Positions 4,849 to 33,593 of a stretch of 39,002 nt of DNA are shown in pieces. Every line of letters begins with the position of its first letter. Position 1 is the stretch's first letter. Location: the IMG/VR virus record IMGVR_UViG_3300021197_000770, positions 1 through 39,002 of that record; one strand, given 5' to 3'. The DNA comes from a virus. The notes under the pieces were generated by a model that worked only from the letters and a program-made list of their open reading frames with translations, was not told the DNA's origin and did not search any database. Position numbers and translations under genes: made by a program.

Positions 4849-6735
4849 TCAGGAAGTAGCGCCAGACTCACCAAGGAGACCACGAACGACGACTAGACCG
4901 TACATATCGGGACGAACCATCTTCTTCGCGTAGCGGGTCATAACACCCTTGCGCGGCACGAAGTCTTCAGGTCCGAAGATTGTGGGAGTAGTCTGTAGTG
5001 GCACGTAAGGTGCGTAGACATAACCAGACTCAAGGAAGCTAGAACCACGGCGACCGATAAGAATCACGTTGCGAAGGAAGTAAGGGTCAACAATGACATC
5101 AAACTTCTTGCTAAGTGAACCGGTCTTGAGAGCGCCGATAGAACCCTTCTCGTCGTCGTGAGTGACGCTTGCACGGAAGCCAGCGGTGAACTCAAGGATG
5201 TTGGCAACTTCAGGTCCACAGACGACGAAGTTGGCACCACCACGGAGAGTCTTGCGGTGAATCTGTGCTGAGACATCGTTGATGGTTTCAACGAGGGTCT
5301 CGTACCACTCAGAGACAGTACCGGTGAAGTCAGGAGCAGCAGAAAGCGCGCCTAGCTCGTTACCGTTAACGTCTACGAAGAGACCGGGTGCGCGGGACCA
5401 GTAGCGGGTAGCTGCGGTAGCACCGTTTACAAGGTCAGCAAGGATCTCACGGTCAATCTCAAGAGCAATCTGCTCGGAGAGAAGACTGGTAAGTTCAACC
5501 TCGGCATCCAAGTTGTGGTATGCGTTGAGGTCCTGACCGAGTTCTGGGGTCCACTTAGCCTTGAGCTTCTTGGTCTGAGCGGTAACTGCGATTGAGTCAA
5601 CCTTGATGTCGATCTCAGGGATGTCGGCGTTGCCTTCAAGTCCCCAAGGTGCCGCACCAATGACTGCACCAACTGCACCACCAGCATCAATCTGATCGCG
5701 AAGAGGATACTTAATTTTACCCGCATCGAGAATTGCACCCAAGACCGTTGGTGAATTACTCTCGGTAAGCTCCGCTGGCTCGTCGGTAACAATAACAAAA
5801 CGAACTGCGGCAGCGGTGCCGGTCAAACCAGACTGGAAAGGAGCACCACGAGAGTCAGAAGAGACTCTGCTTGTGAGGCGACGAACCAATTGTAGGTTAG
5901 CAATAGCAGAAAGGGCGTTAATACCGGTTGATGCATTAAGGGCAGCAAGGAGGTCGTTACCGCTCTCGGTGCCGTTAACAATGTCTTCTAGAGTTATTGC
6001 TGAAAGGTTGTTGAAGTCAATCTCGCCAGTATCAACAGCAAGGTGATCTTCTGCTATGTCGAGAATAATCACACCCTTGTTGGTGAATGCAAGAAGATCG
6101 GGGTCAAAATCAATTAGCTTCTTTCTAGTATCAGAGACACTGCCATCAAGCTTGAACAGAGCAGAAACTGCCTGATCAGTGAGGTTGGCAACAGTTACGA
6201 CACTTGAGCCAGTTGGGCTTGCGTAAGCATAACCACGAGCAGACGAGCGAGGACCAGAAAGGTCTCCACCAAAAGTATCAGTAACGCTGACACCATCAAC
6301 AACACCCTTACCAACCTTATCAGTACCGTAAATGGACTTGTCGGCAACGTTGCCGAAGCGACTTGCCTGGGCATCTGTGGCTCCACCGAGATCACCAGAG
6401 AAGGTGAAGTCGAGGAAGAAGATGAGACCAGAGGGAAGGCTCATTGGCTGAACACTGACGAGATCGTTGGCGATAAGACCAGCGAAAACGCGACGAACAA
6501 TTGGGAAAGCAACAGCAGCGAAACCTTCGACACTACCACCAGACATGGTGTTAGCCTCGCGGAGAAGCTCCTTAGCTTGGTTTTCGAGGAGACGAGACAT
6601 GGCGTTCTGCTTACGCTCAGTTTCAAGACCCTCTAGAAGTCCGGTCTTCTTCCACTTGGAAAGAAGTGCGTGGGACTCCGCACGCATATCACGATTGACA
6701 ACGCCTTCGGTCAATCTTTCTACAATACTAGACAT
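4849..6735 (-). CDS. Major capsid protein (gp23-like)
   Basis: Forms the head shell. 628 residues against 521 for T4 gp23. Conserved stretches are FPIVRRVFAGLIANDLVSVQ plus PMSLPSGLIFF (residues 77-107), TQ/TKKLKAKWTPELGQDL (387-403), FGPEDFVPRKGVMTRYAKK and MVRPDMYGLVVV near the C-terminus. A predicted prohead-protease site LRE-A follows residue 60; T4 is cut after Glu65, so residues 1-60 would be removed as the head matures. The extra length falls between about 120 and 370, where T4-type capsids carry an insertion domain. It lies 27 bases downstream of the scaffold gene, has AAGGAGG before the ATG, and is followed by a terminator. Confidence 0.95.
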   Translation of the reverse strand: MSSIVERLTEGVVNRDMRAESHALLSKWKKTGLLEGLETERKQNAMSRLLENQAKELLREANTMSGGSVEGFAAVAFPIVRRVFAGLIANDLVSVQPMSLPSGLIFFLDFTFSGDLGGATDAQASRFGNVADKSIYGTDKVGKGVVDGVSVTDTFGGDLSGPRSSARGYAYASPTGSSVVTVANLTDQAVSALFKLDGSVSDTRKKLIDFDPDLLAFTNKGVIILDIAEDHLAVDTGEIDFNNLSAITLEDIVNGTESGNDLLAALNASTGINALSAIANLQLVRRLTSRVSSDSRGAPFQSGLTGTAAAVRFVIVTDEPAELTESNSPTVLGAILDAGKIKYPLRDQIDAGGAVGAVIGAAPWGLEGNADIPEIDIKVDSIAVTAQTKKLKAKWTPELGQDLNAYHNLDAEVELTSLLSEQIALEIDREILADLVNGATAATRYWSRAPGLFVDVNGNELGALSAAPDFTGTVSEWYETLVETINDVSAQIHRKTLRGGANFVVCGPEVANILEFTAGFRASVTHDDEKGSIGALKTGSLSKKFDVIVDPYFLRNVILIGRRGSSFLESGYVYAPYVPLQTTPTIFGPEDFVPRKGVMTRYAKKMVRPDMYGLVVVRGLLGESGATS

Positions 6736-19246: not shown

Positions 19247-20060
19247 CGTCGTAGATTTCCTTTACAAGTTCTTGTGTTTTTAATATAGTGAACAGAGTTG
19301 TCTCTGTTAATATAATTTTGTTTGATAGAGCATCAAGGCGTTCCTTGACCAACTTTGTTTTATTGATCATTTCTTTATCAGCGGCAACCTCTTCTATCTC
19401 TGCTGCTTTCTCTAATGATTCTTTTAACCTGCCGAGTTCACGATTGAGGTAGATTTTTAATTCTATCTCTTCGTTTGAAAACGAAGAGATGTACTGGCTT
19501 AGTAAAGCTTTTTGTTCTCGCAGCAGGGTATCACCATACTTTTTATTAAACTTATTGGTAAAAGTTGCAAAAGTGATGCTGTCTATTGGCTCTAGTTTTG
19601 ATACTTCAGTGTTGCCAGCCATCCCCTCAACAATCTTAGCTTCAAGCATCACTGATTGCTTGGGCGAATTCGTGTTGAACATCTTTGCGATGGTCGCGAG
19701 AGACTTATAGTTTGGAACAAAGTTGTTGAATGCCTGGGGGCTCAGTTCTCTGTTGATGTCTTTGATGACTTCAGTTTGTTGTTTGAACAACCCATCGGGG
19801 TCAATAAGGCGCTTGGCAGCCAGCGCAGCCTCCACAATTTTTTTGCTAGTGGCTTGGTCTATATTCTGATTTTCATACAGGGAGCGGTAGCATTCAAGGT
19901 CTTTCTTGAGCAGCGAGTCACCTGTGAAATGCTTACGGACAATAGAAACCACTTTAGCTTTTCTTTCTACATCACCCTTAATAATAGCAACAGTTGCTTC
20001 GCGAGCGAGTGCTTCAAATACAAATGCCGTATTTCTCTTTTTATTGTGTTTATTCTTCAT
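19230..20060 (-). CDS. Helical hypothetical protein next to portal
   Basis: 276 residues, almost entirely helical with a basic start (KNKHNKKRNTAFVFEALARE). There is a conserved-looking NNFVPNYKSLATIAKMFNT segment near residue 112 and a C-terminal helical bundle (EKAAEIEEVAADKEMINKTK). No membrane segment. It overlaps the portal gene by 11 bases. T4 has the small core proteins gp67 and gp68 in this position, but this protein is larger and I see no clear homology. A prohead-core role is inferred from position only. Confidence 0.6.
   Translation of the reverse strand: MKNKHNKKRNTAFVFEALAREATVAIIKGDVERKAKVVSIVRKHFTGDSLLKKDLECYRSLYENQNIDQATSKKIVEAALAAKRLIDPDGLFKQQTEVIKDINRELSPQAFNNFVPNYKSLATIAKMFNTNSPKQSVMLEAKIVEGMAGNTEVSKLEPIDSITFATFTNKFNKKYGDTLLREQKALLSQYISSFSNEEIELKIYLNRELGRLKESLEKAAEIEEVAADKEMINKTKLVKERLDALSNKIILTETTLFTILKTQELVKEIYDDGSNS
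19465..19490. repeat. Perfect 12-base inverted repeat, 2-base spacer
   Basis: ATCTCTTCGTTT and AAACGAAGAGAT flank a two-base spacer, inside the 19230 gene (region encoding SSFSNEEIE). No T tract follows on either strand. It may be a protein-binding palindrome, or chance constrained by the coding sequence. Confidence 0.7.
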
Positions 20061-22056
20061 TATTGTTCTCCATAACTTTGGTCTCTAGTGATTCAAGCAG
20101 GAACTTAACAGAGTTATCCATCTCAAGAAGAGCAAACTCTTCTTCCTGATCTCTTAGGTAAATAGGGTCTTGTTCTTCATAAATACCTCGGGACAGGGAT
20201 CTTAACTCTGAGCCGCCAAGGTTGTTTGTTCTATAAGTGTTCATTTCGGGCGTAGAGATGCTAGCGTAGTTTCTGCTTCTAGCTCCTCCTGGTCGTTTGT
20301 CAACAGCTACCTTTTTGTATTTTGCACCTTTCCATTTTTTCTTAGTATAAGTTTTTCCTTTTCTAGCTCTTTTGTTTAAATTCCATTTTTGGTTTCTTGC
20401 TAGACGGGGCGAATCGCGTGAGCCAGGAGGTGTTGCTAGAAGGGCGCTTTCTTCGCCACCGTCTTCACCCCCGCCAAGATCTTCACCGCCTTCTTCACCG
20501 CCAAGGTCAAGCTCACTGGCGGCACCTTCACCGCCAAGGTCGAGACCACCCTCGCCTCCAAGGTCGAGACCGCCACCACCACTAGCCTCGGCAGCAGCTT
20601 CAGCAACTCCTTCAAGCTCAGTGTCGTGTTTACGATCGTAGAATTGCTCTCGTTGGTTACGAAGGAACTCTTCATGAGACATCCCAAAGATGTTGTCAGC
20701 AACCCACCGACGAGAGAAATAACCCTCAGTGGCAGAAGCAGCAATATCAAACTTGTTCTTCCAGTGCTCAAGCTCTTGGAGTTCAGCAATCTTACTTGGG
20801 TTATTGAGAGCAAGCTTAAAGTTTATAAGATCCTCTCCTCTGTAACCAAGAGTATAAAGGTGGATGATACCGACCTTTTCCAACTCGTGAAGAATAGAAC
20901 GTTGAAGTCGCTGAATAGTGCGAGCAAAGCGAATGTCTTTTGTTGCAAGGGTTGTCTTATCTTCCTGTGCGCCTTCCCCCATTGTAAGGTATGCCTGGGG
21001 AATCTTGATTCCTGAAAACATTTTATCGCGAAGATATTTGATATCGTCAATCGCGGTTGTATTCTGTCCTGCACCCAGGTTCTGAATATCGGTTACAGAG
21101 CCGGCACGGACAGGAATATAATAGTCCTCTTCGATGGAGAGTGGGTTGTAGCGGAGGTCAATACGCCCAGTATCTTTATTAACAATCGTATGACGCTTTA
21201 GCTGAGTGACAATCTTCTGCATGTATTGTTCAACTTCCTGCGGAGGAATAGCGCCAACATCAATTTTAAATACCTTTCTCTCAGACGAACGAACAATGCG
21301 ATAAGCCATCATTGCATCTTCCATTAGGGTAAGCTGTCGCCAAATGCGTCGGACTGGCTCAAGAACGGAAGTCCCGTATGGAGAATATTTATCGTTACCA
21401 AGAATACGGAAGTGGGCAATCTGCCAGTTCTCAAATGTCATGCCTGCGGAGTTCCATTGATATTGGACATAGTTTGGATTTGTCGCGTCAAGACCCTCAA
21501 GTCTTTCCACTTCTTGCAGAGGTATAGCGATTGTGGATTGGACGCCCATTTCATCATCAATATCAAGATATAGAGCAAAGTCTCCATACTTGCACATTGT
21601 GCGGCACCAACCAAAAAGATTGTGTTCTATATTCATGACATTGTGATAAAGAATATTAAGAACAGCCTTGATTTCATCATTGCGGCACTTGATATTAAGC
21701 ATGGGAGAGAGAGCAGAAAATGTGGTCATCTCGTCTGCGTAGATGTCCAGAGCAGAAGCCAACTCGGGCATATATTCCATCTGGTCAAAGTCAATATAAC
21801 GCTCGGACCTCTGTTGATTGGCAATTGCGTTTGCTGCTATGGTGTCAAGCGGATTATACTGCTCTTTCTTAAATTGCTGACCTGACGCCGATTTGAACCT
21901 TGTAGAATACTTATCAAGATGCTGTCTGCGTATTTTTCGACCCGACTCAGACCGGTAACTGATAATCGGACCAGAGAACAGCCGAGTAAGAGCACGGAAT
22001 AGTTGAGATTCTCTATTTGCTGGGTTTTTGCCTTGCTTTACGTTTCTGGGTGCCAT
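20050..22056 (-). CDS. Portal protein (gp20-like)
   Basis: Dodecameric portal at the head vertex, nucleating head assembly and serving as DNA channel. 668 residues, longer than T4 gp20 (524). Characteristic stretches are RSERYIDFDQMEYMPELASA then LDIYADE (about 82-108), FGWCRTMCKYGDFALYLDID, WQIAHFRILGNDKYSPYGTS, and KTTLATKDIRFARTIQRLQR. Residues 485-540 are a Gly/Glu/Asp/Leu low-complexity region with repeated LDLGGEGG units, followed by a very basic segment (KRARKGKTYTKKKWKGAKYK) and an acidic C-terminus. These tail segments are not in T4. It lies eight bases after the terminase gene. Confidence 0.93.
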   Translation of the reverse strand: MAPRNVKQGKNPANRESQLFRALTRLFSGPIISYRSESGRKIRRQHLDKYSTRFKSASGQQFKKEQYNPLDTIAANAIANQQRSERYIDFDQMEYMPELASALDIYADEMTTFSALSPMLNIKCRNDEIKAVLNILYHNVMNIEHNLFGWCRTMCKYGDFALYLDIDDEMGVQSTIAIPLQEVERLEGLDATNPNYVQYQWNSAGMTFENWQIAHFRILGNDKYSPYGTSVLEPVRRIWRQLTLMEDAMMAYRIVRSSERKVFKIDVGAIPPQEVEQYMQKIVTQLKRHTIVNKDTGRIDLRYNPLSIEEDYYIPVRAGSVTDIQNLGAGQNTTAIDDIKYLRDKMFSGIKIPQAYLTMGEGAQEDKTTLATKDIRFARTIQRLQRSILHELEKVGIIHLYTLGYRGEDLINFKLALNNPSKIAELQELEHWKNKFDIAASATEGYFSRRWVADNIFGMSHEEFLRNQREQFYDRKHDTELEGVAEAAAEASGGGGLDLGGEGGLDLGGEGAASELDLGGEEGGEDLGGGEDGGEESALLATPPGSRDSPRLARNQKWNLNKRARKGKTYTKKKWKGAKYKKVAVDKRPGGARSRNYASISTPEMNTYRTNNLGGSELRSLSRGIYEEQDPIYLRDQEEEFALLEMDNSVKFLLESLETKVMENNNEE

Positions 22057-22063
22057 TAAATTC

Positions 22064-23644
22064 TCACTTAATTATCCACATATATTGGGAGTATAGATTT
22101 CTTGCTTCGTTTATTTTACTAGTTTGATCTTCGCCCGTGTAGCCAATTTGTCCTTTTATCTGTGTACTAAGAGTTGTTCTGGAAGTCATTATTGAGTCAA
22201 CGAATGCTTTTTGGTAGTTTAAGTCTCGGGCGCTTGTCTGGAGGGCGGTGTCTCTAACCCAGCAGCAAATCGCAAGAGCCATCACTAAGTCATCGTTATA
22301 ACCTCTCATAGCTTGTGGCTTTCCGTTGTACCAAATAAAAGTGCGAAACTCATTTGCCAAACGCGAAGAATATGTCTTAACTAGTTTGTTTCGAACAAAC
22401 TCTTCTAACTTTGCGACAATCAAAGGTCTGGTCTTGCTTGTAGTTGAAAAACCAGCGATAGCACCTGTGCGGTGCTCGCCTAAATGCTGGTCAATGTACT
22501 CGTGTGTGGATTTGATCGAGTAATACAAATTTGGATAAGCATACTCTACAAGCTTATCGATAACAGTGTAGCCAATAGAGTTGTTTTCTACAACCAACAT
22601 ACAGTTGCCGTATTCCCTGCCAACTTGATTCAACATATTCGCATAGAGATCTGGCGTTGGTTTACCCATATATTCGCCCACAATCTCCATTGTTTCAAGT
22701 TTGAGAATATGGAATGTAGAGCTATCAGCACCATCACCTCTTGCTACATCTGCTGCAAGCAGATAATTACAACTTGGGTCGTATTCCTCCCAAATCCAAA
22801 AGTTTCTGTCGAAGCCTGTTTTGTGTTTTGGTTCTTGGATGTTGGACATAATCCACTCCATGTTGTCTGGGTCTATAACAGTCTCACCAGAAGTATTGAA
22901 GTTACATTCCAACTCCTGGGCAATTTGTCGGCGCGACATGTTTTTGGTTTCTTTCTTGAACCATTCTTCGTCCCTCTCAGGGTGAACATCCCACATAAGA
23001 GTTGTGAGATAAAAATTATTGTCGTTACTCTCAGCACCTATGCAGGTCTTATGAAACCAGTTGCCAACACCGTTTGGTGTAGAAATTGCGATGCAACGAC
23101 CACCAGTTGATAGCGTTGGGTATAGACCAGTCCAAAGATCTTCAAGACCTTCAATGTGCGCAGCCTCGTCAAGAACAAGAAGAGACAGCGCCTCGGAACG
23201 ACCAGCATCGCCAGAGGTAGAGGCTGCCTTAATTGAAGAACCATTTGACAACTCAAAAGACGTGCGGTTGTCAGTTGTAATGTTTGCTATCCTGATCCAG
23301 TCAGGAAGATTCTTCATAATGTTTTTGACTTTTCGCACCAAGTTGCCTGCTGTCTCGAACTTGGTTGCCATAACAAGAATGGCTTTGTCACGGTGGAATA
23401 ACATCATCCAAACAATGTAGCCAGCGGTAATTGTTGAGATACCTAATTGGCGACCTTTGTTGATTACATTGAAACGATAGTCGTTAAAGTCTTTTAATAA
23501 TTGATCCTGATAATCATAGGTTTTAAACAACATAAGCCCGTGCATCGGGTGAGAGATACGGGCGTAGTTTTTTAGAAAGTAAGAGGGGTCTTTACCGCAC
23601 TTAACAATTTCTTTGAGTATTTGTTTTTTTGTTAATCTTGGCAT
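22064..23644 (-). CDS. Large terminase subunit (gp17-like)
   Basis: ATP-driven DNA packaging motor and headful nuclease. 526 residues against 610 in T4. Walker A-like GRQLGIST at 64-71, Walker B LLVLDEA at 155-161, and coupling motif STPNG at 188-192. The C-terminal RNase H-type nuclease has LLAADVARGDGADSS with Asp299, a later LVVENNSIG with a Glu, and GYNDDLVMALAIC with paired Asp. It is followed by the portal gene. No gp16-like small terminase is obvious; the two genes just upstream do not look like gp16. Confidence 0.95.
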   Translation of the reverse strand: MPRLTKKQILKEIVKCGKDPSYFLKNYARISHPMHGLMLFKTYDYQDQLLKDFNDYRFNVINKGRQLGISTITAGYIVWMMLFHRDKAILVMATKFETAGNLVRKVKNIMKNLPDWIRIANITTDNRTSFELSNGSSIKAASTSGDAGRSEALSLLVLDEAAHIEGLEDLWTGLYPTLSTGGRCIAISTPNGVGNWFHKTCIGAESNDNNFYLTTLMWDVHPERDEEWFKKETKNMSRRQIAQELECNFNTSGETVIDPDNMEWIMSNIQEPKHKTGFDRNFWIWEEYDPSCNYLLAADVARGDGADSSTFHILKLETMEIVGEYMGKPTPDLYANMLNQVGREYGNCMLVVENNSIGYTVIDKLVEYAYPNLYYSIKSTHEYIDQHLGEHRTGAIAGFSTTSKTRPLIVAKLEEFVRNKLVKTYSSRLANEFRTFIWYNGKPQAMRGYNDDLVMALAICCWVRDTALQTSARDLNYQKAFVDSIMTSRTTLSTQIKGQIGYTGEDQTSKINEARNLYSQYMWIIK

Positions 23645-24905: not shown

Positions 24906-25312
24906 TTAGCCGCCTGCTGGATACCGTAGTAAGTGGCGCCGCCAAGGACAACACCGCCTGCGAACCAAAGCCACTTGCGGTGTGGTGCTTGCTTCTTAAT
25001 GATTGCTTGCTGCTTCTCGATCACAAGGTCTTTTGACGCCACAATCTCGGTGTGTTGCTGGTCAAGCGTGGTTATGCGCGCTTCAAGCAGTTCCTTATTA
25101 AGTTTGTACTGAGAGGCTGCCTTATCAAGTTGAAACTCTACTTCAAGATCACACTTCAAATTGGCTTCTTCGTGCTTTGCTAATATTTCTGCGGCAGCAG
25201 GCACACTAAGCAAAACGCCCTCGAATGGGGCGGGCTGGTCTTCTGCGAGGACTGTGAAGTCTTCGGCGCTTGCGGTCGAGAGTAAAGCAAGCAATACTAG
25301 GCTATTCAACAT
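24902..25312 (-). CDS. Secreted coiled-coil membrane protein (spanin-like?)
   Basis: 136 residues. It has a signal-like N-terminus (MLNSLVLLALLSTASA-ED), a short Pro-rich mature start (DQPAPFEGVLLSVPAAAEIL), a coiled coil at about 48-108, and a membrane helix at 113-129 (WLWFAGGVVLGGATYYG). No lipobox cysteine follows the signal. It overlaps the 25302 gene by 11 bases; that gene encodes an inner-membrane coiled-coil protein, so the two could span the periplasm as an atypical spanin-like pair. I infer lysis from topology and pairing, not from homology. Confidence 0.55.
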   Translation of the reverse strand: MLNSLVLLALLSTASAEDFTVLAEDQPAPFEGVLLSVPAAAEILAKHEEANLKCDLEVEFQLDKAASQYKLNKELLEARITTLDQQHTEIVASKDLVIEKQQAIIKKQAPHRKWLWFAGGVVLGGATYYGIQQAAK

Positions 25313-25682
25313 ATCTTAATCCGTAGGTCTCTTCAAAGCGCTGTATAATCAGAGCCTTGTCTTGTTTGAACTCTTTTATTATAACTTCTTTTTCTGCTCT
25401 CGTCAAGTCCTTTATCTCGGCTTGTCGTGCTTCGTATTCAAACTCCAACTCTTCTATCTCTATACGATAGCGTTCAAGGGCTTCGTCACGCAGGCGTAAC
25501 TCTTCGGTGTGGAGGGATTGTAAGGTGCTTATCTGATCCTTCAAAGACTGCTCGGCAATCTCGTGTGCTTTGATAATGTTGCGAACATCATACTGCGACT
25601 TGCCAAACACAATAAGAAGGAGCAGGGCAAGCCCAATCTCCTTCCAATGTCTTAAACAAAATGCTAGTATCTTTTGTTTCAC
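25302..25682 (-). CDS. Inner-membrane coiled-coil protein (i-spanin-like)
   Basis: 126 residues. One N-terminal membrane helix (EIGLALLLLIVFG, residues 15-27) follows a short basic start, and a long coiled coil runs to the C-terminus (about 35-115). This N-in, single-anchor topology is that of Rz-type inner-membrane spanins. It uses a GTG start at 25682 whose G is shared with the preceding TAG (TAGTG). It overlaps the signal-peptide protein downstream. A structural or tail-assembly chaperone role cannot be excluded. Confidence 0.55.
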   Translation of the reverse strand: MKQKILAFCLRHWKEIGLALLLLIVFGKSQYDVRNIIKAHEIAEQSLKDQISTLQSLHTEELRLRDEALERYRIEIEELEFEYEARQAEIKDLTRAEKEVIIKEFKQDKALIIQRFEETYGLRYVE

Positions 25683-26407
25683 TATGAGTACCTTGAACTA
25701 AACAGATAATCAAATAGATTTGATAAGCTGTATAAGAATGATTTTTGTCTAACACCTAGCTGTGCTAAGGTGGACAACACCTTTACATGGTTATCTTCTA
25801 GTTCCTGCAACCCTGGTGGCTTGGGCTCGATATCATAAGAATAGTTTAAATGATCCTTGCCTTTATGCAAGATACAATCATCTGAAGTGTCGTCTGGTGT
25901 TCTTTTTTGATCAGAATCAATATCATCAAAAGGTTCTTTTTCCACTTCCTGTGAGTCAGCCCTTTTGCTGTAAATTGACCACACTTTGTCTGCGCCGGGC
26001 TTCACCACTATCCTGTCTGGGGTTAATCCATTCAGATAAAAAAGGGCTGCTTCATACGCGGCGGGTCCAAGTTTACTACCCTTTTTTGATGCCGAATTGG
26101 TTACCTCAAAAGCATTATTACACTCACCTTTGTCATATCTAGGTTTAGCAAATCTAACCCCAGCGACAACATCTATTATCCCGTATCCATCTAGTACATT
26201 CATAATCATGTGTGGTTCAGAAAGTTTATCTGGATAATTGTTTTTATAAAACTCGATTTTATCAAGGATTTTCTTGGCATCGTAAACAATAACAATTCCA
26301 TTATCACCACTCATGCTAACAGTAAGCCCAAGACCTTTGCCAAGGGCTTTGTCAATTGGGCTGCCCTCTTTTAAAAACCTATTCCAATTTTCCATTATAA
26401 GTTTCAT
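25682..26407 (-). CDS. Tagged protein with acetyltransferase-like segment
   Basis: 241 residues. The N-terminal tag MKLIMENWNRFLKE-GSPID ends in LKE, a prohead-protease pattern. The body contains SKKGSKLGPAAYEAALFYLN near residue 107, then PDRIVVKPGADKVWSIYSKR. The Gly-rich turn followed by a helix resembles the CoA-binding loop of GNAT enzymes, but the rest is too divergent to be sure. DDIDSDQKRTPDDTSDDCIL is an acidic linker. Its ATG is coupled to the previous stop (TAATG). If the tag is a head-targeting signal, this is a candidate injected enzyme. Confidence 0.6.
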   Translation of the reverse strand: MKLIMENWNRFLKEGSPIDKALGKGLGLTVSMSGDNGIVIVYDAKKILDKIEFYKNNYPDKLSEPHMIMNVLDGYGIIDVVAGVRFAKPRYDKGECNNAFEVTNSASKKGSKLGPAAYEAALFYLNGLTPDRIVVKPGADKVWSIYSKRADSQEVEKEPFDDIDSDQKRTPDDTSDDCILHKGKDHLNYSYDIEPKPPGLQELEDNHVKVLSTLAQLGVRQKSFLYSLSNLFDYLFSSRYS

Positions 26408-26799
26408 TAATATTGCCCTCCAGTGTCTCTGTCTCTGTAAGATCCGCGATCTGCACTATGTTCTTTTGGATTCGCTCCGACTGTTTCTAATGCTTTTACC
26501 AAGTTTGCTTTAAAAGTCTTTATATATTCTTCATTGTAGGACTCATTTTCTAAAAACCAATAACCATCATAATTTGCTTCAAGGTCGGAAGTTACCAAAT
26601 CTGCTAGCATGTCTATGGTGGAAGCTGTGTATGTTTCTACATCCTGTTCACCATCAAGCTTGAGCATGATCTTTGTTTGGTCATGATCTGTTTTCATACC
26701 TAAAAATTCTATGGTCGTATCATGACCTGTATCGGAAGTAGTAAAAATGGTTACCTGCTCGGTAAGGAATTTACTCCAGCTTTCCATTATAAGTTTCAT
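26407..26799 (-). CDS. Tagged hypothetical protein (possible internal head protein)
   Basis: 130 residues. The tag MKLIMESWSKFLTE-QVTIF differs from that of the next gene at few positions, and the first 19 bases of the two genes are identical (ATGAAACTTATAATGGAAA). After the predicted cut, a small alpha/beta domain follows (TTIEFLGMKTDHDQTKIML, ETYTASTIDMLADLVTSD) with a polar, likely disordered tail (SADRGSYRDRDTGGQY). No family recognised. AAAGGA precedes the ATG. Confidence 0.62.
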   Translation of the reverse strand: MKLIMESWSKFLTEQVTIFTTSDTGHDTTIEFLGMKTDHDQTKIMLKLDGEQDVETYTASTIDMLADLVTSDLEANYDGYWFLENESYNEEYIKTFKANLVKALETVGANPKEHSADRGSYRDRDTGGQY

Positions 26800-26805
26800 A
26801 TTATT

Positions 26806-27000
26806 CTATCCTTTTAATTTTACAATAGCGTCGATTACAGACTGACCACCCAGATAAAGACCAGAGATGATAACCCAATCTCCAGATTCAAGACCACCCC
26901 AAGCCATAAGGCCAGTTGCTACAATCCAAACAAGAAGCTTGCGTGAAGTAAGCTTTTGTATGCCTCTGTCGAGTAGTGCTTGCTTTTGTTCTTTGCTCAT
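26806..27000 (-). CDS. Small holin-like membrane protein
   Basis: 64 residues from ATG 27000 (a GTG lies one codon earlier). A charged N-terminus ends in LTSRK, followed by two hydrophobic helices (LLVWIVATGLMAWGG, then WVIISGLYLGGQSVIDAIV) and a short basic end KLKG. This TSRK-then-two-helix layout occurs in many small phage membrane proteins annotated as holins. Spanin-like genes are nearby, but no endolysin is visible in the window, so the lysis role is tentative. The start overlaps the previous stop (TGATG). Confidence 0.6.
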   Translation of the reverse strand: MSKEQKQALLDRGIQKLTSRKLLVWIVATGLMAWGGLESGDWVIISGLYLGGQSVIDAIVKLKG

Positions 27001-27452
27001 CACTCGTCACCTCCGCGTTTACCGAACATCTCTCTAACGCTCTGAACGCCAACGGCAGCAAATGCGGTAGCAATCATTGGACCAGTGTAGGGGCTGAATA
27101 ACAGCTTCTGCAAAGCATCCATTACAATCTGCATGTTCTCAGGGTTGATACCTTCCAATCCTTCTTGCATCATGTCGTCATCATCAAACTGCGAAAGTCT
27201 CGCTTCCTCGTAGTTGTCGATTAATCCAATGCACTTTTGAAGAAGACGTTTAGCTGCTTCGCCGCCACCCGCGAGACTATAAGCCATGCCGATTATTTGG
27301 TCCGTCTGCTTCATTTCTTCTCTAGTGTCAGCACCGACAGCGCCTTCGGGCGGTAGTTCAAAACTGTATTCATCATCCAACATAAAATCATCCATCTCTG
27401 ACACAATTTCTTCTTTGATTAGAGTTAATAGCTCTGATTTCTTTATTTTCAT
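27000..27452 (-). CDS. Tagged acidic protein with hydrophobic C-terminal helix
   Basis: 150 residues. The start MKIKKSELLTLIKEEI-VSEMD belongs to the IIKEEL tag family. The next 40 residues are acidic. A helical domain follows (QIIGMAYSLAGGGEAAKRLL), and a moderately hydrophobic stretch near the end (YTGPMIATAFAAVGVQSV) could be a membrane helix or buried helix. The ATG overlaps the stop of the 27449 micro-gene (ATGA). No family recognised. Confidence 0.6.
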   Translation of the reverse strand: MKIKKSELLTLIKEEIVSEMDDFMLDDEYSFELPPEGAVGADTREEMKQTDQIIGMAYSLAGGGEAAKRLLQKCIGLIDNYEEARLSQFDDDDMMQEGLEGINPENMQIVMDALQKLLFSPYTGPMIATAFAAVGVQSVREMFGKRGGDE

Positions 27453-27547
27453 TTTTTATCCTTTGCGATCTTTGTCGCCGTTGCGTATATTACACTTTCG
27501 GCGTCATCGCCATAGCGTTTCTTGAAGCCGCCCTTAGACTTCTTCAT
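27449..27547 (-). CDS. 32-residue microprotein with RYG..AESVIYATATK motif
   Basis: It starts at ATG 27547 with AAAGG upstream and reads a Lys/Gly start, then FKKRYGDDAESVIYATATKI and AKDKK. The stop overlaps the next ATG by four bases (ATGA). The RYG...A-x-S-V-x-Y-A-T-A-T-K pattern looks like a small structured helix rather than random sequence. I recall similar segments within larger marine phage virion proteins, but cannot check that here. It may be a stand-alone domain split from the 27563 protein just upstream. Confidence 0.5.
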   Translation of the reverse strand: MKKSKGGFKKRYGDDAESVIYATATKIAKDKK

Positions 27548-27562
27548 ACCTTTAACTACTTT

Positions 27563-27739
27563 CTATTTTTGTTTTTTCTCTGGTTCTGTCAATTTTCTTT
27601 CGTCTATTTCTTCTTTTTCCATCGCTTCCACTTGGGCGCGGACTTCTTCGCCAAACATCTCTCCTACTTCTTCGTTTGTGAGAACCACTTGAAGCTCTTC
27701 TTTGATGATCTGCCTCAGTCTGGCTTTCGTAATTTTCAT
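27563..27739 (-). CDS. 58-residue tagged charged protein
   Basis: It begins MKITKARLRQIIKEEL, sharing 14 of 16 residues with the start of the 23655 protein. The rest is a Glu/Lys-rich helix (EEVGEMFGEEVRAQVEAMEK) and a charged tail. Its ATG overlaps the stop of the cysteine-rich gene (ATGA). Together with the 32-residue frame 15 bases downstream it may form a split version of one tagged protein. The tag similarity makes it a confident real gene despite its size. Confidence 0.68.
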   Translation of the reverse strand: MKITKARLRQIIKEELQVVLTNEEVGEMFGEEVRAQVEAMEKEEIDERKLTEPEKKQK

Positions 27740-28173
27740 TGTATTCTACTCAACTTAGCCTTAATGACACCGCCGTGGTCGGCTTTAAAATCTTGGATGC
27801 TTGCGCGAACAGACGCTTCATCAACCACCCCGGCGTACCAACCCTCAAATGTCTTAACGATTTCATATTTCTCAATAACTGTTTCGCTAATACCCTCGGA
27901 TAAAAGTATTTCTTTTAGTAGCTCGCCTATTGGCTCAGCCGCTGGCTGCTCTACTTCCTCTGCCACAACTGGAGTGGGTTCTTCTTTTACATGGATTTCT
28001 ATAATGGGTTCTGGGGGAGCCTCACAGCACTCTGCCTCTTCGCAGCAATCATCGCCAGGACCGCATTCGGTCTCTTCACAGCAATCTTCAGGGCAGCAGT
28101 CTTCTTCGACAAGTGCGGGTGCTTTCCCAAATAGGCTATTTAGCCAACTCCATAGTGTTTGTAGTAAATTCAT
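27736..28173 (-). CDS. Cysteine-doublet acidic protein
   Basis: 145 residues from ATG 28173, with AGAAAGGAA upstream; a frame opening at 28197 would overlap the FtsZ-like gene. The N-terminus is an amphipathic, Trp-bearing helix (NLLQTLWSWLNSLFGK). Residues 25-50 hold nine cysteines, eight of them as doublets: CCPEDCC, then C, then CC and CC, within Glu/Asp. A Pro/Glu linker and a C-terminal helical domain follow (PIGELLKEILLSEGISETV, VRASIQDFKADHGGVIK). The clusters suggest soft-metal binding or disulphide cross-linking. It is two bases from the FtsZ-like gene. Function unknown. Confidence 0.68.
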   Translation of the reverse strand: MNLLQTLWSWLNSLFGKAPALVEEDCCPEDCCEETECGPGDDCCEEAECCEAPPEPIIEIHVKEEPTPVVAEEVEQPAAEPIGELLKEILLSEGISETVIEKYEIVKTFEGWYAGVVDEASVRASIQDFKADHGGVIKAKLSRIQ

Positions 28174-28174
28174 T

Positions 28175-29305
28175 TTATTTTCCTTTCTCGATACCATTCA
28201 TACTTAGTATCGCAATCAATCCAGGGACATTTTTTCGGACATAAACCCCAGAGAAAAGTGTCTCGCAGCGACCGCCAACATAAGCAATCGCAGATTCAAG
28301 GTGTTTTGATATGCGAGGGTCAGCAACCATCTCTTCGCTTGCTACGAGAATAAGTGAACCTGCTGCGGCTTTGCCCTTGGGTGGAGGACAAGCAGAGCGG
28401 TTCATACAGTTGTGCATAATGGTTGTGCCGAGCTTGCCGGTGTTGGGGTCCTTGATCATTGTGGAGCCGATGAAGGCACGACCATCTTTACCAAAGCAAG
28501 TCTCCAAGTCCTTGGAGTCAAAAGATTGTATGGGAGAGTCTTCGGTAGACAGCTTCAGTATCTGTGCGAAGATCTTTGAGAACTGGGTATTGGCTACTGG
28601 ATACATGCCAAGCATACCGATACGACCGCGTAGGAGGCGTGTGGAGCGCTCATTATCTACAACGATGTGTGGGTATGGCGTAACATCATTGAGCAGCGAC
28701 AGGGCGTTACGGGCGATTGTGGGGTTAAGATTCTCCTGTGCTGTTGGCCAAGAAACAATGTAGACAACCTTGCCGCTTGCCTGAACAGATTGTAGGTAGC
28801 GCTCAAACACAGGCTGTAGAGCAACTACGGATGAACCTGTGCCACCGCCACCGCCTGCCATCACGAACAGCCAGTCAACCTTGCCAAACTTGATGCGCAG
28901 TGCGTCTTCTACAATAGCGCCGTTCTGCGTTAGGACTTCTTTACCATAAGTGATGTTTTTACCAACCCCGTCAGAGTCAGGAATAAGAACGACGTGCTCT
29001 TCTTCTACATTCTTGGGAATGTCTTTGCCTGTGCTATTAACAAGCAGGGTCTTGTTGAAACCCAACTCGATCATAGCGTTTGCCATTTTGTTACCGCCGC
29101 CGCCAACACCAACAAAGCCCACGTTTATAGATGATGGAGCTGTGTTCTCAGGTAGCATATCTTCGTCAGAGTATTCCATCTGTAATCCGAAGTCCTCAAC
29201 CATACCAAAGTCTTCCGCTTCTACTTCTTCGTGGAAGTGATCCTTTTCTTGGTTGAATGATGGGGGCGCTTCTGCTGGTGGCAGAAAGTCAAATTCGTTA
29301 CTCAT
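28175..29305 (-). CDS. FtsZ/tubulin-superfamily protein
   Basis: 376 residues. Residues 1-57 are an acidic extension. The GTPase fold follows: T1 loop GFVGVGGGGNKMANAM (63-78), the tubulin signature GGGGGTGSS (151-159), then KVVYIVSWPTAQENLNPTIA with a downstream ALSLLNDVTPYPHIVVDN stretch, matching the FtsZ layout VTKPF..E...R...A..g...L. The presumed T7 loop (ANTQFSKIF, 238-246) lacks the two Asp of FtsZ N-x-D-F-x-D. Phage tubulins (PhuZ, TubZ) centre or segregate phage DNA; host-FtsZ interference is another option. Its ATG overlaps the stop of the Mre11-Rad50 gene, so expression is coupled. The family is secure; polymerisation is unknown. Confidence 0.85.
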   Translation of the reverse strand: MSNEFDFLPPAEAPPSFNQEKDHFHEEVEAEDFGMVEDFGLQMEYSDEDMLPENTAPSSINVGFVGVGGGGNKMANAMIELGFNKTLLVNSTGKDIPKNVEEEHVVLIPDSDGVGKNITYGKEVLTQNGAIVEDALRIKFGKVDWLFVMAGGGGGTGSSVVALQPVFERYLQSVQASGKVVYIVSWPTAQENLNPTIARNALSLLNDVTPYPHIVVDNERSTRLLRGRIGMLGMYPVANTQFSKIFAQILKLSTEDSPIQSFDSKDLETCFGKDGRAFIGSTMIKDPNTGKLGTTIMHNCMNRSACPPPKGKAAAGSLILVASEEMVADPRISKHLESAIAYVGGRCETLFSGVYVRKNVPGLIAILSMNGIEKGK

Positions 29306-32300
29306 TGATTTACCTTTGCAAAACCTGCTTCTTTCTCAATCACAATCTGCATATCTACACAATCTTTGAGAGAATCAAGGTGAGAAATCAGTAAGACGTT
29401 CTTGAAATACACCTTAATTAGTTCCAAGATCCGAATAAATCCAGCCATATTCTCTTCGTCCAAAGCAGTTCCAGGCTCGTCCAAGATGAACAGGTCGCTC
29501 TTGGGCAGAGAAGATACAGACAGCAGAGCAAGACGAATAGCCATAGCAGCCATCGTCTTCTCGGCACCTGATGCCATCTCAATAGGGCGAGCCTCGTGTT
29601 TAGAGTGCTTGATGAAAATATCAAACTTGTTGCCGGATGTCTCAAAGAAAATCTCAAAGTCTACAACATTTGATAGGATCTTCCCAATCTCCTCGTTGAT
29701 TACTGGTAGTTTTTGTTTGATGATATCATAACCAATTCCGTTTGGATGCATACATCGTAAGAAAAGATCATACGATGAATACTCCGATTGTATTGATTGG
29801 AACTCTACTTGTCTTTGTTTGAGGTCTTCGATTCGCTGTTCTTCTGAGCCGAGAGATTTATAAAGATCAATCTTCTCCTGGCTATTTGACTCAATTTGTT
29901 TCTCAATGGATTTCGATTCTTTGGCATATAACTTTTTCTCCTTTAGTAATTTTTCTAAGTTTTCGATTGCTTCCTTGTTGTCGTTATAAGAAGCCTCTTG
30001 CTGTGCCAACTCTTCTATCAAGGTATTATGCCTATCAAGAGCCGACCGCCTGCGTTCTATCCCCAACTGCAAGTCTTTGATTAGACTCTCAGTCTCAATT
30101 TGCTTTTTTTCAAGCTTCCTATACTTGTCGAGGTGGTCTCTCACAATCTTAGGATTAAGATCAGAGAGTAGCTTTTCTATTTCTTCGATTTTGCTTTCCG
30201 TTTCTGGAATGACCGCTGTGGTCACATGAGCATCACGAATAAACTTACAAGCAGGATATGCAGTGCCGCAAGGTATGTCTTCTAGTAATTTCTTTTTTTC
30301 GGTTGCAACCTCTAGCCTTTGTGTGCAAGATTGAAGTTCGTTTTCAGATTCTTCAATATTTATAAGGGAACTCGCAAGACTTTGATAGTCAAGCGTTTGT
30401 AGAAGATTATTGATCTTGGCGAGTCGTTCCCTTTCACTATGTAGTGTGTTACCCTCATCAACGATAGAATCAGACAAAGAAATTATTTTATTTTTTGTCT
30501 TCTTGATCTCCGACTGTACCTTGTGGATATCAATCACATCTGCTGGGATGCTGTCAATCTTCTGTGATAGTTCGAGCACATTGTCATTGGCGAACTTTAG
30601 TGTTGCTTCTATCTTAAGCTTTTTTGCATCAATCTCTAAAATGTGCTGCTTAAAAATATCAATTACTTCCTGTGCTTGTTCTATTTCTTTGTTATAATCT
30701 CGACCTTGTAATTTTTTCATCAAAATCTTGGATTCTTGTGAATCGTCTTTTGCTAGTTTAAACTTCTTGTCAAAAAACTGTAGGTCTAGAAACTTGGCTA
30801 TAATCTCTTTACGTTTAGTTGAGCCCTCGTTAATAAATGATAGAGCGCCATGCTGTGAAGACATAGAGGAGATTAGAAAATCTTCAATAGTCCCAAATTG
30901 CTTACGAATATTAGCATCCGTTTGGTTGCGTGTATTGCCGTTAAGAGATTTGGTCTCCTCTGTGACCGTGTTATACATCGAGAAATCAAGATGAGTTTTA
31001 GCCTCTATGCTAGTCTCCCCTTTTGATTTTTTTTCATACTTTTCTACCTTACGATGAATAGTAAAAACTTTTTCATTTACTGAAATTGTTACTTTACCTT
31101 CGCCGCAATTACGATTTTGATTTACAACATTCGCATTTTTGCGTTCATTCTTGCTTGTTGTGTTGAAAATTGTGAACAAGATAGCATCGATAATTGATGA
31201 TTTGCCAGAAAAGTTTTTACCAAATATTCCAGTGATGCCGTTTATGTTTTTAAAATCTACAGAATTGTCTTTGCCATAGTTGAAAAGATTTGACCACTCG
31301 AATTTTTTCAACTTCCAATTGACGTTTCTACTGACATCTTCTTTTGATTCCACAGCTTGGTTATATTTTGCGTTTAGTCGATACACAGAAGAAAGGGCAT
31401 CGGAGTTGATTTGAAAATCTTTCAAATACTCTGATATAAGTTCATGCTGTATTTCTGGATCTCTAAGATTGCTTGAGCCCAAACCATCAGCTATTTCTTC
31501 AACATTGCCGCGCTGACCGGCAGCGCGATTAAGAAATGAAATTGATTCTGGGCTAAATTTATGCTTGGCAACACTGATTGCCTTACGCATCACATTGAGC
31601 GAGAGATTGTTCTCACTGACGACCCTCAATCGAGAATTTAATGGTATATTGGCGCTTCGTGGAATCTTACCAGTTGGTGTTAATTCAATTGTAATAAATG
31701 GTCGAGGGTTCTGTAGGGCATAGTGCTCTACTGTCCAATCATTTTTGGATTCAATAGTCCAGATAGAAAATCCTTTATTGTTGTTCTCACCGTGGTTCTG
31801 TTGTATAGTTGACCCAGCGTAATAGACACGTTCTTCATCGTCTAAGAACTGGCGTTTGTGGATATCTCCAAGCATCGCAAAATCAAAGTGGTCAAAGATT
31901 GAAATCTCGTCCTCTCCAAATTCCATTGTCCACCCAGCATCAGTTTGGCAATTAGAAATGGCACCGTGATACAGAGCAATATTGATATTGCTTGGCTGAG
32001 ATGGTTTTACCCAATTGTCTCGATCAAAGACAGAAAGGACATTCAGCGTCAGCCCAGGCTCAATCTCTCGCTCACCCGCGTTCTTCAGTAGGGTTAGGTC
32101 ACTATGATCAAGTGCTTGGATGATAGGCGTGATCGCATCCTGCCGGCTGCTATTCTTCAAGTTTCCGTCGTGATTGCCAAGAATAACAAACGTAGGCGCA
32201 ATCTCGGCAAGATTACTAAAAAAATTAGACGCCATCTCCACAAATTCTGGTGAGATTTGCGTCTTGGTGTGCGCGATGTCACCACAATGGACGATATAAT

Positions 32301-32409
32301 CTACTTCTTTCTCTCGCAAGATTTCGTACATCTGCTCAAAACATGCGCGGTAGTCTTCGTGATACTTCAGATTCTTGATATGAGTATCAGCGATATGTGC
32401 TATTTTCAA
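29302..32409 (-). CDS. Mre11-Rad50 (SbcD-SbcC, gp47-gp46) single-chain fusion
   Basis: About 1035 residues in one open frame. Residues 1-350 are an Mre11-type nuclease: ADTH (7-10), CGDIAH (42-47), GNHDG (78-82), YHGAI (147-151) and GDIHKRQ (181-187). Residues 365-1035 are Rad50-type: Walker A GIFGKNFSGKSS (394-405), long coiled coils, a hook with CGTAYPAC (714-721), signature MASGAEKTMAA (945-955) and Walker B LFILDEPGTALD (973-984). T4 encodes these as separate genes 47 and 46, which resect DNA ends for recombination-dependent replication. I choose TTG 32409 because AGGAGG lies six bases upstream and TTGA overlaps the preceding stop. A perfect sigma70 promoter lies one small gene upstream. 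Confidence 0.93.
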   Translation of the reverse strand: MKIAHIADTHIKNLKYHEDYRACFEQMYEILREKEVDYIVHCGDIAHTKTQISPEFVEMASNFFSNLAEIAPTFVILGNHDGNLKNSSRQDAITPIIQALDHSDLTLLKNAGEREIEPGLTLNVLSVFDRDNWVKPSQPSNINIALYHGAISNCQTDAGWTMEFGEDEISIFDHFDFAMLGDIHKRQFLDDEERVYYAGSTIQQNHGENNNKGFSIWTIESKNDWTVEHYALQNPRPFITIELTPTGKIPRSANIPLNSRLRVVSENNLSLNVMRKAISVAKHKFSPESISFLNRAAGQRGNVEEIADGLGSSNLRDPEIQHELISEYLKDFQINSDALSSVYRLNAKYNQAVESKEDVSRNVNWKLKKFEWSNLFNYGKDNSVDFKNINGITGIFGKNFSGKSSIIDAILFTIFNTTSKNERKNANVVNQNRNCGEGKVTISVNEKVFTIHRKVEKYEKKSKGETSIEAKTHLDFSMYNTVTEETKSLNGNTRNQTDANIRKQFGTIEDFLISSMSSQHGALSFINEGSTKRKEIIAKFLDLQFFDKKFKLAKDDSQESKILMKKLQGRDYNKEIEQAQEVIDIFKQHILEIDAKKLKIEATLKFANDNVLELSQKIDSIPADVIDIHKVQSEIKKTKNKIISLSDSIVDEGNTLHSERERLAKINNLLQTLDYQSLASSLINIEESENELQSCTQRLEVATEKKKLLEDIPCGTAYPACKFIRDAHVTTAVIPETESKIEEIEKLLSDLNPKIVRDHLDKYRKLEKKQIETESLIKDLQLGIERRRSALDRHNTLIEELAQQEASYNDNKEAIENLEKLLKEKKLYAKESKSIEKQIESNSQEKIDLYKSLGSEEQRIEDLKQRQVEFQSIQSEYSSYDLFLRCMHPNGIGYDIIKQKLPVINEEIGKILSNVVDFEIFFETSGNKFDIFIKHSKHEARPIEMASGAEKTMAAMAIRLALLSVSSLPKSDLFILDEPGTALDEENMAGFIRILELIKVYFKNVLLISHLDSLKDCVDMQIVIEKEAGFAKVNQ

Positions 32410-32612
32410 GGTGCCTCCTGTTTGTAAGTTTCCCAAGGTTTAGCATCGGGATGTTGTTCGATATAATAGTGAAATACCGCATCCTCCATTTCTTCTGGGG
32501 TGGGTTCCTCAAAATAACTACTAAAAAGCAACACAGTAGCAGCGATCGGCAGGTAGAAACAAACAGCCAAAAGTGCGAAATGAAGCAGGCTGTCGTTAAA
32601 CATCTCTTTCAT
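32406..32612 (-). CDS. Small single-helix membrane protein
   Basis: 68 residues. One membrane helix (LLHFALLAVCFYLPIAATVLLF, about residues 9-30) precedes an acidic soluble part (EEPTPEEMEDAVFHYYIEQH). GAGGAGGT precedes the ATG. It is the first gene after the perfect sigma70 promoter, and its stop overlaps the TTG start of the Mre11-Rad50 fusion. Function unknown; early expression is inferred. Confidence 0.65.
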   Translation of the reverse strand: MKEMFNDSLLHFALLAVCFYLPIAATVLLFSSYFEEPTPEEMEDAVFHYYIEQHPDAKPWETYKQEAP

Positions 32613-32628
32613 TATTACCTCCTCATAG

Positions 32629-32657
32629 ATTATAACACGTCAGTTGGACGTTGTCAA
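32629..32657 (-). promoter_or_regulatory. Perfect sigma70 promoter TTGACA-N17-TATAAT
   Basis: On the minus strand TTGACA (32652-32657) and TATAAT (32629-32634) are separated by exactly 17 bases. The leader to the ATG at 32612 is only about ten bases plus the Shine-Dalgarno. The -35 box lies inside the 3' end of the 32640 gene. It should be used by host RNA polymerase early in infection and drives the 32406, Mre11-Rad50 and FtsZ-like genes. Confidence 0.92.
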
Positions 32658-33593
32658 GGGCACTGGCGGCAAGCCTGCTCTGTAGAGAGTAGTATTTAGA
32701 TATTTTTCTAGCTCTTCTGGTGATTTGACATTGTTGAGTCTGAGAATTTCTTTCTTTTGGGATTCGTCGCCAGTCCTGTATTCGGTTGCCATTGAGTCAG
32801 TTATTTCTCTTATTAAATCCTGATATATATCGAGGGCTACTGTCCATTCTGGAGGCAACACTTGCGCGTTTCCAACATATCTAGTTTTTTCTTCCCCGCT
32901 GCCAGATGGCCACTTACCGCTATCTCCATAAACAAAATCCCTCAACTTTCCAATATTTTTAATATCACCTTTCAAAATGGTCTGAACTATCCACGCACGA
33001 TACTGATCTTTTGTGCCGAGTGAATTTGGTAAAACTAAATTTGGTGGAATAGCATCATAGTCAAGTGTTGCCATCCCGCCGGGAACTGTAGTCGACACTC
33101 TGGCTCTCTTGTATTGTAGCTCGCCATTTGCGACCATATCATCAATCTGTTTCCAGGCAGCTTCTATTTTTTCATTATTGTTCATATCGGACATATTGAC
33201 CAGCCCGAGCTTTGCTGTAGGGTATTGTTTTCCACGTTCCTCAACGGCAGCGTCTGGATCCATCATTGCACCAGTATCTACGCCGAAGCGTTGTAGCGTC
33301 TCATCGTCTAAGCGCTGGACTTTTTCTATGTCTTGTTTAACTTTCTTTTCTTGAGAATTGCCTACTAAGCTCATCCCACCAAACAAAATAACAACTGCGC
33401 TAAGGAGGGAGATTCCAGCAATTTTTTTAAAATTTCTAGCACGCTTTAGTTTGTCTTCAAACTCGTCAGCCTCATCTTCATTGAGACCTACAATTTTTTG
33501 AAGAAGCTCGACTGCATCTTCTTCGTCTTTTGAATTTTGTAATTCTTCAAGAATGATGCGCTTTACTTGTTCTCTGGAAAAGCCATGTTTCAT
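32640..33593 (-). CDS. Tagged membrane-anchored hypothetical protein
   Basis: 317 residues. The start FSREQVKRIILEEL-QNSKD resembles the IIKEEL tags. An acidic helical segment follows (DEEDAVELLQKIVGLNEDEA), then a membrane helix at about 57-77 (KIAGISLLSAVVILFGGMSL). The C-terminal 230 residues are soluble, with a PGGMATLDYDAIPPNLVLPN segment and PPEWTVALDIYQDLIREITD. No family recognised. If packaged, it could insert into the host membrane on injection. Its 3' end carries the -35 box of the next unit. Confidence 0.62.
   Translation of the reverse strand: MKHGFSREQVKRIILEELQNSKDEEDAVELLQKIVGLNEDEADEFEDKLKRARNFKKIAGISLLSAVVILFGGMSLVGNSQEKKVKQDIEKVQRLDDETLQRFGVDTGAMMDPDAAVEERGKQYPTAKLGLVNMSDMNNNEKIEAAWKQIDDMVANGELQYKRARVSTTVPGGMATLDYDAIPPNLVLPNSLGTKDQYRAWIVQTILKGDIKNIGKLRDFVYGDSGKWPSGSGEEKTRYVGNAQVLPPEWTVALDIYQDLIREITDSMATEYRTGDESQKKEILRLNNVKSPEELEKYLNTTLYRAGLPPVPLTTSN

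Follow-up and report, generated by a model that had tools for sequence, protein, structure and literature searches.

To our knowledge, nearly all cytoskeletons described from phages belong to jumbo phages that form a nucleus, the others to a few plasmid-like prophages. In the phiKZ-type jumbo phages (Chimalliviridae), the tubulin PhuZ centers DNA (PMC4244570) and brings capsids to the compartment where replication takes place (reviewed in PMC13282480). Other members of the tubulin/FtsZ superfamily include bacterial FtsZ, archaeal CetZ, TubZ of plasmid TubZRC and of phage c-st, and gp138 of the 497-kb Bacillus phage G, which is annotated as a putative FtsZ-like protein. Tubulins of phages were already known, and the one described here is set apart by its T4-like carriers, the position of the gene in the head module, and a conserved N-terminal motif.

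The window, i.e., the whole stretch of DNA analyzed, is an IMG/VR record of 39,002 bases, and its features are listed in Table 1. Judged from sequence, the tubulin encoded in it heads a previously unnamed family in T4-like viruses, hereafter F1. Close F1 relatives were found in at least 125–129 IMG/VR contigs (≥84% in the 80 that were retained), and the count reached at least 298 contigs once F3, a subfamily of ~55% identity, was added. A second, TubZ-like family (F2), ~24% identical to the window family, was found in at least 89 IMG/VR contigs. The longest carrier contigs were 195 kb (F1), 284 kb (F3), and 190 kb (F2). One or the other of two tubulin families is carried by at least 298 and at least 89 contigs of T4-like phages, beside genes for head assembly and packaging, and the tubulin sequence is often better conserved than those of the head proteins. 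This suggests that common phages, and not just the giant ones that form a nucleus, routinely possess a cytoskeleton of their own.

Table 1. Positions of features in the window (numbering of the 39,002-base record).
Feature	Position	Strand	Remarks
Perfect sigma70-type promoter-like site	32629..32657	-	12/12 with TG, before SbcCD
Fused SbcD-SbcC (T4 gp47/gp46-like) recombination nuclease	29302..32436	-	ATGA, 4-nt overlap with tubulin start
Tubulin/FtsZ-superfamily gene, family F1	28175..29305	-	376 aa, ATG start, intact
N-terminal extension	29135..29305	-	Residues 1–57, acidic, predicted disordered
T1 nucleotide-binding loop GFVGVGGGGNKM	29084..29119	-	Residues 63–74
T4 tubulin signature FVMAGGGGGTGSSV	28826..28867	-	Residues 147–160
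T7 loop catalytic acids Asp263 and Asp266 (DSKD)	28508..28519	-	Invariant in 61/61 aligned sequences
Gene directly downstream of tubulin	27736..28173	-	Hydrophobic N-terminus MNLLQTLWSWLNSLF, Cys-rich acidic middle
Terminase large subunit (gp17-type)	22064..23644	-	4.5 kb downstream of tubulin
Portal protein (gp20-type)	20050..22056	-	
Major capsid protein (gp23-type)	4849..6735	-	

Predicted fold, GTP site, and N-terminal extension

The Tubulin/FtsZ GTPase domain (PF00091) was the only Pfam match of the window protein (35.4 bits, E 1.8e-8, cut-off 33). When the single sequence was searched against PDB sequences with phmmer, CetZ (3zid) and FtsZs were matched at ~4e-8, and a profile built from 61 viral-family sequences matched CetZ 3zid at 1e-25, TubZ/RepX at 1.5e-20, phage TubZ at 7e-18, and FtsZ at 3e-17. 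The AlphaFold2 model obtained with 61 sequences of the viral tubulin families as input had a mean pLDDT of 87.6 and a pTM of 0.83, with residues 1–44 disordered; an earlier model from 17 near-identical sequences (pLDDT 49) was discarded. The GTPase domain, H7 helix, and C-terminal domain of the tubulin topology were all present in the model. In VIA-align comparisons, which took in the PDB hits of Foldseek so that families absent from that list may still match, the model was aligned with CetZ2 (Z 32.6, 2.5 A over 294 residues, ~21% identity), TubZ (Z 32.1, 2.4 A over 312 residues), and FtsZ (Z about 28, ~20% identity). The profile search and the structure prediction, either of which was regarded in the earlier note as a possible refutation of its FtsZ/tubulin-family call, both placed the protein inside this fold, with matches to CetZ2, TubZ, and FtsZ over the whole core. 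Membership in the superfamily is therefore judged to be real, the fold evidence from the predicted model being far beyond chance. On the opposite (+) strand, long frames antisense to the tubulin gene and its neighbor (28311–28763 and 27569–28207) were present, without evidence of coding.

The T1 loop (GFVGVGGGGNK) and the T4 loop (AGGGGGTGSS), which the earlier note had recognized, were both present in the open reading frame. The columns invariant in F1, F3, F2, and phage G were G68, G71, N90, D95, G113, G154, G155, G157, P187, E191, N200, N218, N239, D263, and D266; as judged by alignment with FtsZ, CetZ, TubZ, and PhuZ, they include positions of the T1–T5 loops, the Asn of H7, and the two acids of the T7 loop. 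The T1 and T4 loops, the T5 Glu, the Asn of H7, and D263/D266 were invariant or nearly so in 61 sequences drawn from phage G and the three viral families. In tubulin/FtsZ proteins, the H7 Asn contacts guanine, and the two T7-loop acids reach into the following subunit of a filament, whose catalytic site they make complete. On the basis of the conserved GTP loops and T7 acids, the window protein is predicted to hydrolyze GTP and to assemble into filaments, with the GTPase coupled to polymerization. The reading that we favor, as slightly more probable than not, is that of a filament-forming, GTP-hydrolyzing phage tubulin positioning capsids and/or replicating DNA. During infection, the GTP-binding protein would form dynamic filaments by head-to-tail polymerization, and these would position phage material, i.e., capsids and/or replicating DNA, in a role that would parallel, in a T4-like phage, that of PhuZ in nucleus-forming jumbo phages.

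The 57-residue acidic N-terminal extension reported from the sequence was borne out, with 17 D/E and 1 K/R, and the pLDDT was <50 up to approximately residue 44. Its median identity in 81 F1 relatives was 91%, compared with 88% for the core. The F1 extension contains the motif [DE]DF[DG][FM][VIL][ED]x[FY] and LPEN. The far N-terminus of F3 proteins was variable in length and sequence and often acidic, and it closed with a motif near [DE]DF[DG]F[VIL][ED]xY followed by LPEN in nearly all of 18 F3 proteins compared. A disordered tail bearing a short conserved motif would correspond to a docking-peptide layout, like the C-terminal peptide of FtsZ at the opposite end of the protein, and the motif may serve as a docking site for a phage partner. 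If the protein makes filaments, the motif may provide a direct handle on the cargo. The F2 proteins (e.g., L231:9001-10137) start with MVDIPTLDIEDYD, which recalls the core of the FtsZ C-terminal peptide (DIPAFL), here located at the N-terminus; this may be chance.

Relationship to FtsZ, CetZ, TubZ, PhuZ, and phage G gp138

The window protein is not FtsZ, because it scored 49.3 bits against the FtsZ equivalog model (cut-off 295.2), lacks a C-terminal tail, and carries T2 and T6 motifs unlike those of FtsZ; the PhuZ-free tree also places it on the TubZ side, although a grouping with FtsZ is not formally rejected. The GVGGGGN of T1, the GGGTG of T4, and the D-x-x-D of T7 are common to both proteins, whereas T2 (N-x4-D) and T6 (DNE[RK]) of the window protein are TubZ/CetZ-like. 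Its C-terminal end lies within a few residues of the last strand of the core, with no tail beyond it, in agreement with the remark that no FtsZ C-terminal peptide was obvious. In a tree of 35 sequences, F1+F3 were apart from FtsZ, CetZ, TubZ, and PhuZ, and FtsZ was monophyletic without the window protein (100/100). When the long PhuZ branches were removed for a second tree, F1+F3 were supported at 100/100, and F1+F3, F2, TubZ, and phage G were joined against FtsZ+CetZ at 99/98; within this joint group, the window family was not nested in TubZ. Forcing F1+F3 with FtsZ was not rejected (p-AU 0.127), and forcing them with CetZ cost 8 log units and was borderline (p-AU 0.088); therefore, the deep branching of the tree is only partly resolved. 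The phylogenetic comparison proposed in the earlier note thus gave a TubZ/phage G/F2 side in the PhuZ-free tree, with the FtsZ grouping still statistically acceptable. Its impression that the protein is closer to bacterial FtsZ was not upheld, since the best fold matches were CetZ2 and TubZ, the T2 and T6 motifs are TubZ/CetZ-like, and the PhuZ-free tree joins the family to the TubZ side.

Archaeal CetZ gave the best fold match (CetZ2, tied with TubZ) and the best profile match (3zid), but its identity to the window protein is ~21% and the two were not grouped in the tree. TubZ shares the fold, the T2 and DNE[RK] motifs, and the nearest clade in the PhuZ-free tree. It differs in the T7 acid pair (D..E in the compared plasmid TubZs, D..D in the window protein), and the window protein differs from it in its conserved acidic N-terminal motif and the lack of a C-terminal tail. 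The TubZ-like C-terminal domain PF22453 was not matched by the window protein in Pfam and was matched by F2. Phage G gp138 (~25% identity) has the GTP loops, the DNEK and FDxxDL motifs, and the tree group with TubZ in common with the window family; unlike the window protein, it is without the acidic N-terminal extension and has a longer C-terminus, and it is surrounded by metabolic genes, thymidine kinase among them, instead of head genes. A 66% relative of gp138 was encoded by a 175,445-base contig from an uncultured virus (L086), so this tubulin is not unique to phage G. PhuZ shares the tubulin fold and the T7 acid pair with the window protein, but it is very remote in sequence, has other T4/T5 loops, and belongs to different phages; the PhuZ group PHROG 4733 matched the window protein with E 0.099 (12.7 bits), compared with 395 bits for phiKZ PhuZ. 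The only PHROG below E 0.01 was 17961, of unknown function, and that match was weak. Two BFVD proteins of uncultured Caudovirales annotated as "FtsZ Cell division GTPase" (A0A6J5RW92 and A0A8S5UFG9) share the fold (E 4e-22 and 4e-19) but are only 18–20% identical to the window protein and belong to a different family.

This placement bears on a TubZ-like segregation function, in which the filament would pull or separate the genomes of the phage, similar to what happens in plasmid TubZRC or in the pseudolysogeny of phages. The tree puts the window family closest to the TubZ and phage G tubulins, TubZ was matched with Z 32.1, and F2 matches the Pfam TubZ-like C-terminal domain. However, neither a tubR-like small DNA-binding gene nor tubC-like iterons were seen in 27400–33000 of the window, the carriers have a T4-like portal, terminase, and capsid, and the neighbors of the gene are head genes. 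Known T4-like phages are virulent. We consider such a segregation function unlikely.

Carrier phages, gene order, and conservation

The T4-like affiliation proposed for the window was confirmed, its portal being of gp20 type, its terminase of gp17 type, and its capsid protein of gp23 type. Going by the closest relatives of their portals, the carriers are Far-T4-like phages; the nearest isolates were Microcystis phage Mel-JY01, Flavobacterium phage immuto, and Rhodothermus phage RM378. Tubulin was absent from these three in a profile search that detects phage G and would not detect PhuZ, and of 50,697 isolate phage records, gp138 of phage G alone matched the window protein. In Mel-JY01, the gene that follows SbcCD was considered as a hidden homologue and rejected, being a DNA methylase. 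In the part of the literature covered, no Far-T4 or marine T4-like phage was described as having an FtsZ or tubulin. A link between Far-T4-like viruses and marine Bacteroidetes has been reported (PMC7198788). One F1 copy was on a phage contig with terminase and portal genes binned in a Flavobacteriaceae MAG, which is a weak hint to the host of F1 phages. A bacterial origin of the gene was dismissed, as the one match in 84,980 genomes, scanned non-exhaustively with two peptide patterns, was itself a phage contig in a Flavobacteriaceae MAG. From the data-set numbers, most carrier contigs are apparently of marine origin. Chimallin was found in none of 14 long, possibly incomplete carrier contigs by a model that finds it in phiKZ; therefore, a nucleus-free setting of the carrier phages is likely.

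The gene order in the window was primase, SbcCD, tubulin, small genes, terminase, portal, and, farther on, capsid. The coupling to a recombination nuclease gene described in the earlier note was confirmed by the overlap with the upstream SbcCD. The F2 tubulin preceded terminase-portal in 77 of 80 loci, at a distance of 1.3–2.2 kb in the terminase-selected set. For F3, tubulin was beside head/packaging markers in 47 of the 48 loci that contained another marker (the other 32 had no recognizable one): 30 were between the capsid and head-tail adaptor genes or beside whichever of these was on the contig, 12 were after terminase-portal, and 5 were between SbcCD and terminase. PHROGs, together with homology to window genes, confirmed which of the F3 genes encode capsid and adaptor. 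From these F2 and F3 counts, the tubulin gene shifts within the head/packaging block and rarely leaves it. No partner gene was conserved next to tubulin. SbcD and SbcC (T4 gp47 and gp46) are encoded as a single fusion protein of 1044 aa, and the fusion was also present in Mel-JY01 and F2 phages.

The earlier note had placed the gene under an early promoter. A perfect sigma70-type site was indeed found, but it lies 3.3 kb upstream of tubulin before SbcCD, and it may plausibly be early. Sites with 10–11 of 12 positions were at the same place in five of nine compared relatives (G005, G007, G009, G010, and L368), and none stood out in G003, G004, G006, and G008 or in F2. T4-type late promoters (TATAAATA) did not occur above chance. 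A phage-made superfamily member behind a consensus host-type promoter would suit a takeover of the host, in which the protein co-assembles with or caps host FtsZ polymers, division is blocked, and the cell stays large. Against this, the identity to FtsZ is only ~20%, the gene is fixed among head genes in many relatives, and the GTPase and T7 machinery is conserved in full, although a simple poison could do without it. Of the three functions named in the earlier note (organizing replicating DNA, forming a filament, and poisoning host division), a division poison would be the least compatible with a conserved catalytic cycle, and we regard host takeover as very improbable.

The F1 loci behind the identity and pN figures were picked by tubulin similarity, which inflates relative conservation; with this bias, identity to eight long contigs was 84–99% for tubulin, 78–93% for terminase, 65–95% for portal, 59–72% for capsid, and 51–85% for SbcCD, and tubulin was highest or near-highest of the 43 window genes. 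In five distant genomes, synonymous differences were saturated in tubulin as in its neighbors (pS 0.77–0.87), and pN, subject to the same bias, was 0.09–0.11 in tubulin, 0.14–0.15 in terminase, 0.20–0.22 in portal, 0.23–0.26 in capsid, 0.24 in primase, and 0.30–0.33 in SbcCD. Protein-level constraint on the viral tubulin thus exceeded that on capsid or portal. Saturated pS together with low pN indicates that tubulin is under strong purifying selection, and a recent horizontal sweep was rejected as the cause of the high identity. In the three nearest genomes, pS was lower in tubulin than in terminase, and some local exchange is therefore possible.

Because the first contigs were found through tubulin, the comparison was repeated on terminase-selected loci, which reduce but do not remove the selection bias. 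Tubulin was present in 36 of 36 such F2 loci with ≥3 kb upstream (median identity 91.8%, compared with 78.3% for terminase) and in 12 of 14 F1 loci with ≥9 kb upstream, where it was usually more conserved than terminase. Diverged tubulins less conserved than their terminase were found in L394 (69%) and L406 (62%). Tubulin was missing at this site in L368, L393, and the shorter L412, contigs too short to exclude a copy elsewhere; the gene is therefore not essential in all relatives, and relocation is possible. The absence was clean in L368 (terminase 91%), where SbcCD was followed directly by small genes (L368:6055-6235).

Conservation as strong as that of a structural core protein, together with a position between capsid and head-tail adaptor genes or beside terminase-portal in three settings, would also suit a head-morphogenesis factor, i.e., a GTPase or short polymer acting directly on prohead assembly or terminase-portal packaging and possibly virion-associated. 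We consider this quite unlikely, given that the T4-like isolates closest by portal assemble heads without the gene, that F1 is coupled to SbcCD, and that three close relatives have no copy at this site.

Cargo of the putative filaments and neighboring small genes

For the favored positioning filament, capsids or packaging complexes are preferred as cargo because of the head-gene linkage, a coupling to capsids that we infer from gene order only. Replicating DNA stays a possible cargo in view of the SbcCD coupling in F1, which in the window suits a role on DNA at least as well as one on capsids. In a bolder form, which we regard as less likely than not, the protein may be a cytoskeletal GTPase near-core in the head/packaging module of widespread uncultured T4-like phages, whose filaments, docked by the N-terminal motif to capsids or the packaging motor, would unite proheads and replicating DNA. 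If filaments form, intracellular transport by viral tubulin would be a routine strategy in common aquatic phages. If the near-core form is true, tubulin transport of capsids or genomes would extend beyond the jumbo phages and would not depend on a phage nucleus, and it may be commoner than PhuZ.

The gene directly downstream of tubulin was considered as a membrane adaptor on account of its hydrophobic N-terminus and was dropped, since it is not a conserved neighbor. The slot after tubulin is occupied by small proteins that turn over rapidly between relatives. The small proteins encoded at 27563–27739, 27000–27452, 26407–26799, and 25682–26407 have two types of N-terminal peptide, MKITKxxLKQIIKEE and MKLIMExWxxFLxE, which resemble T4-type capsid-targeting sequences and were also found at homologous places in relatives, suggesting that the small genes after tubulin are a cassette of head-delivered proteins. 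In addition, a small membrane protein (26806–27003) and a coiled-coil membrane protein (25302–25682) were conserved near tubulin in F1 phages. These two look like a holin and a spanin, with no function assigned by PHROGs, and similar small genes were present in F2.
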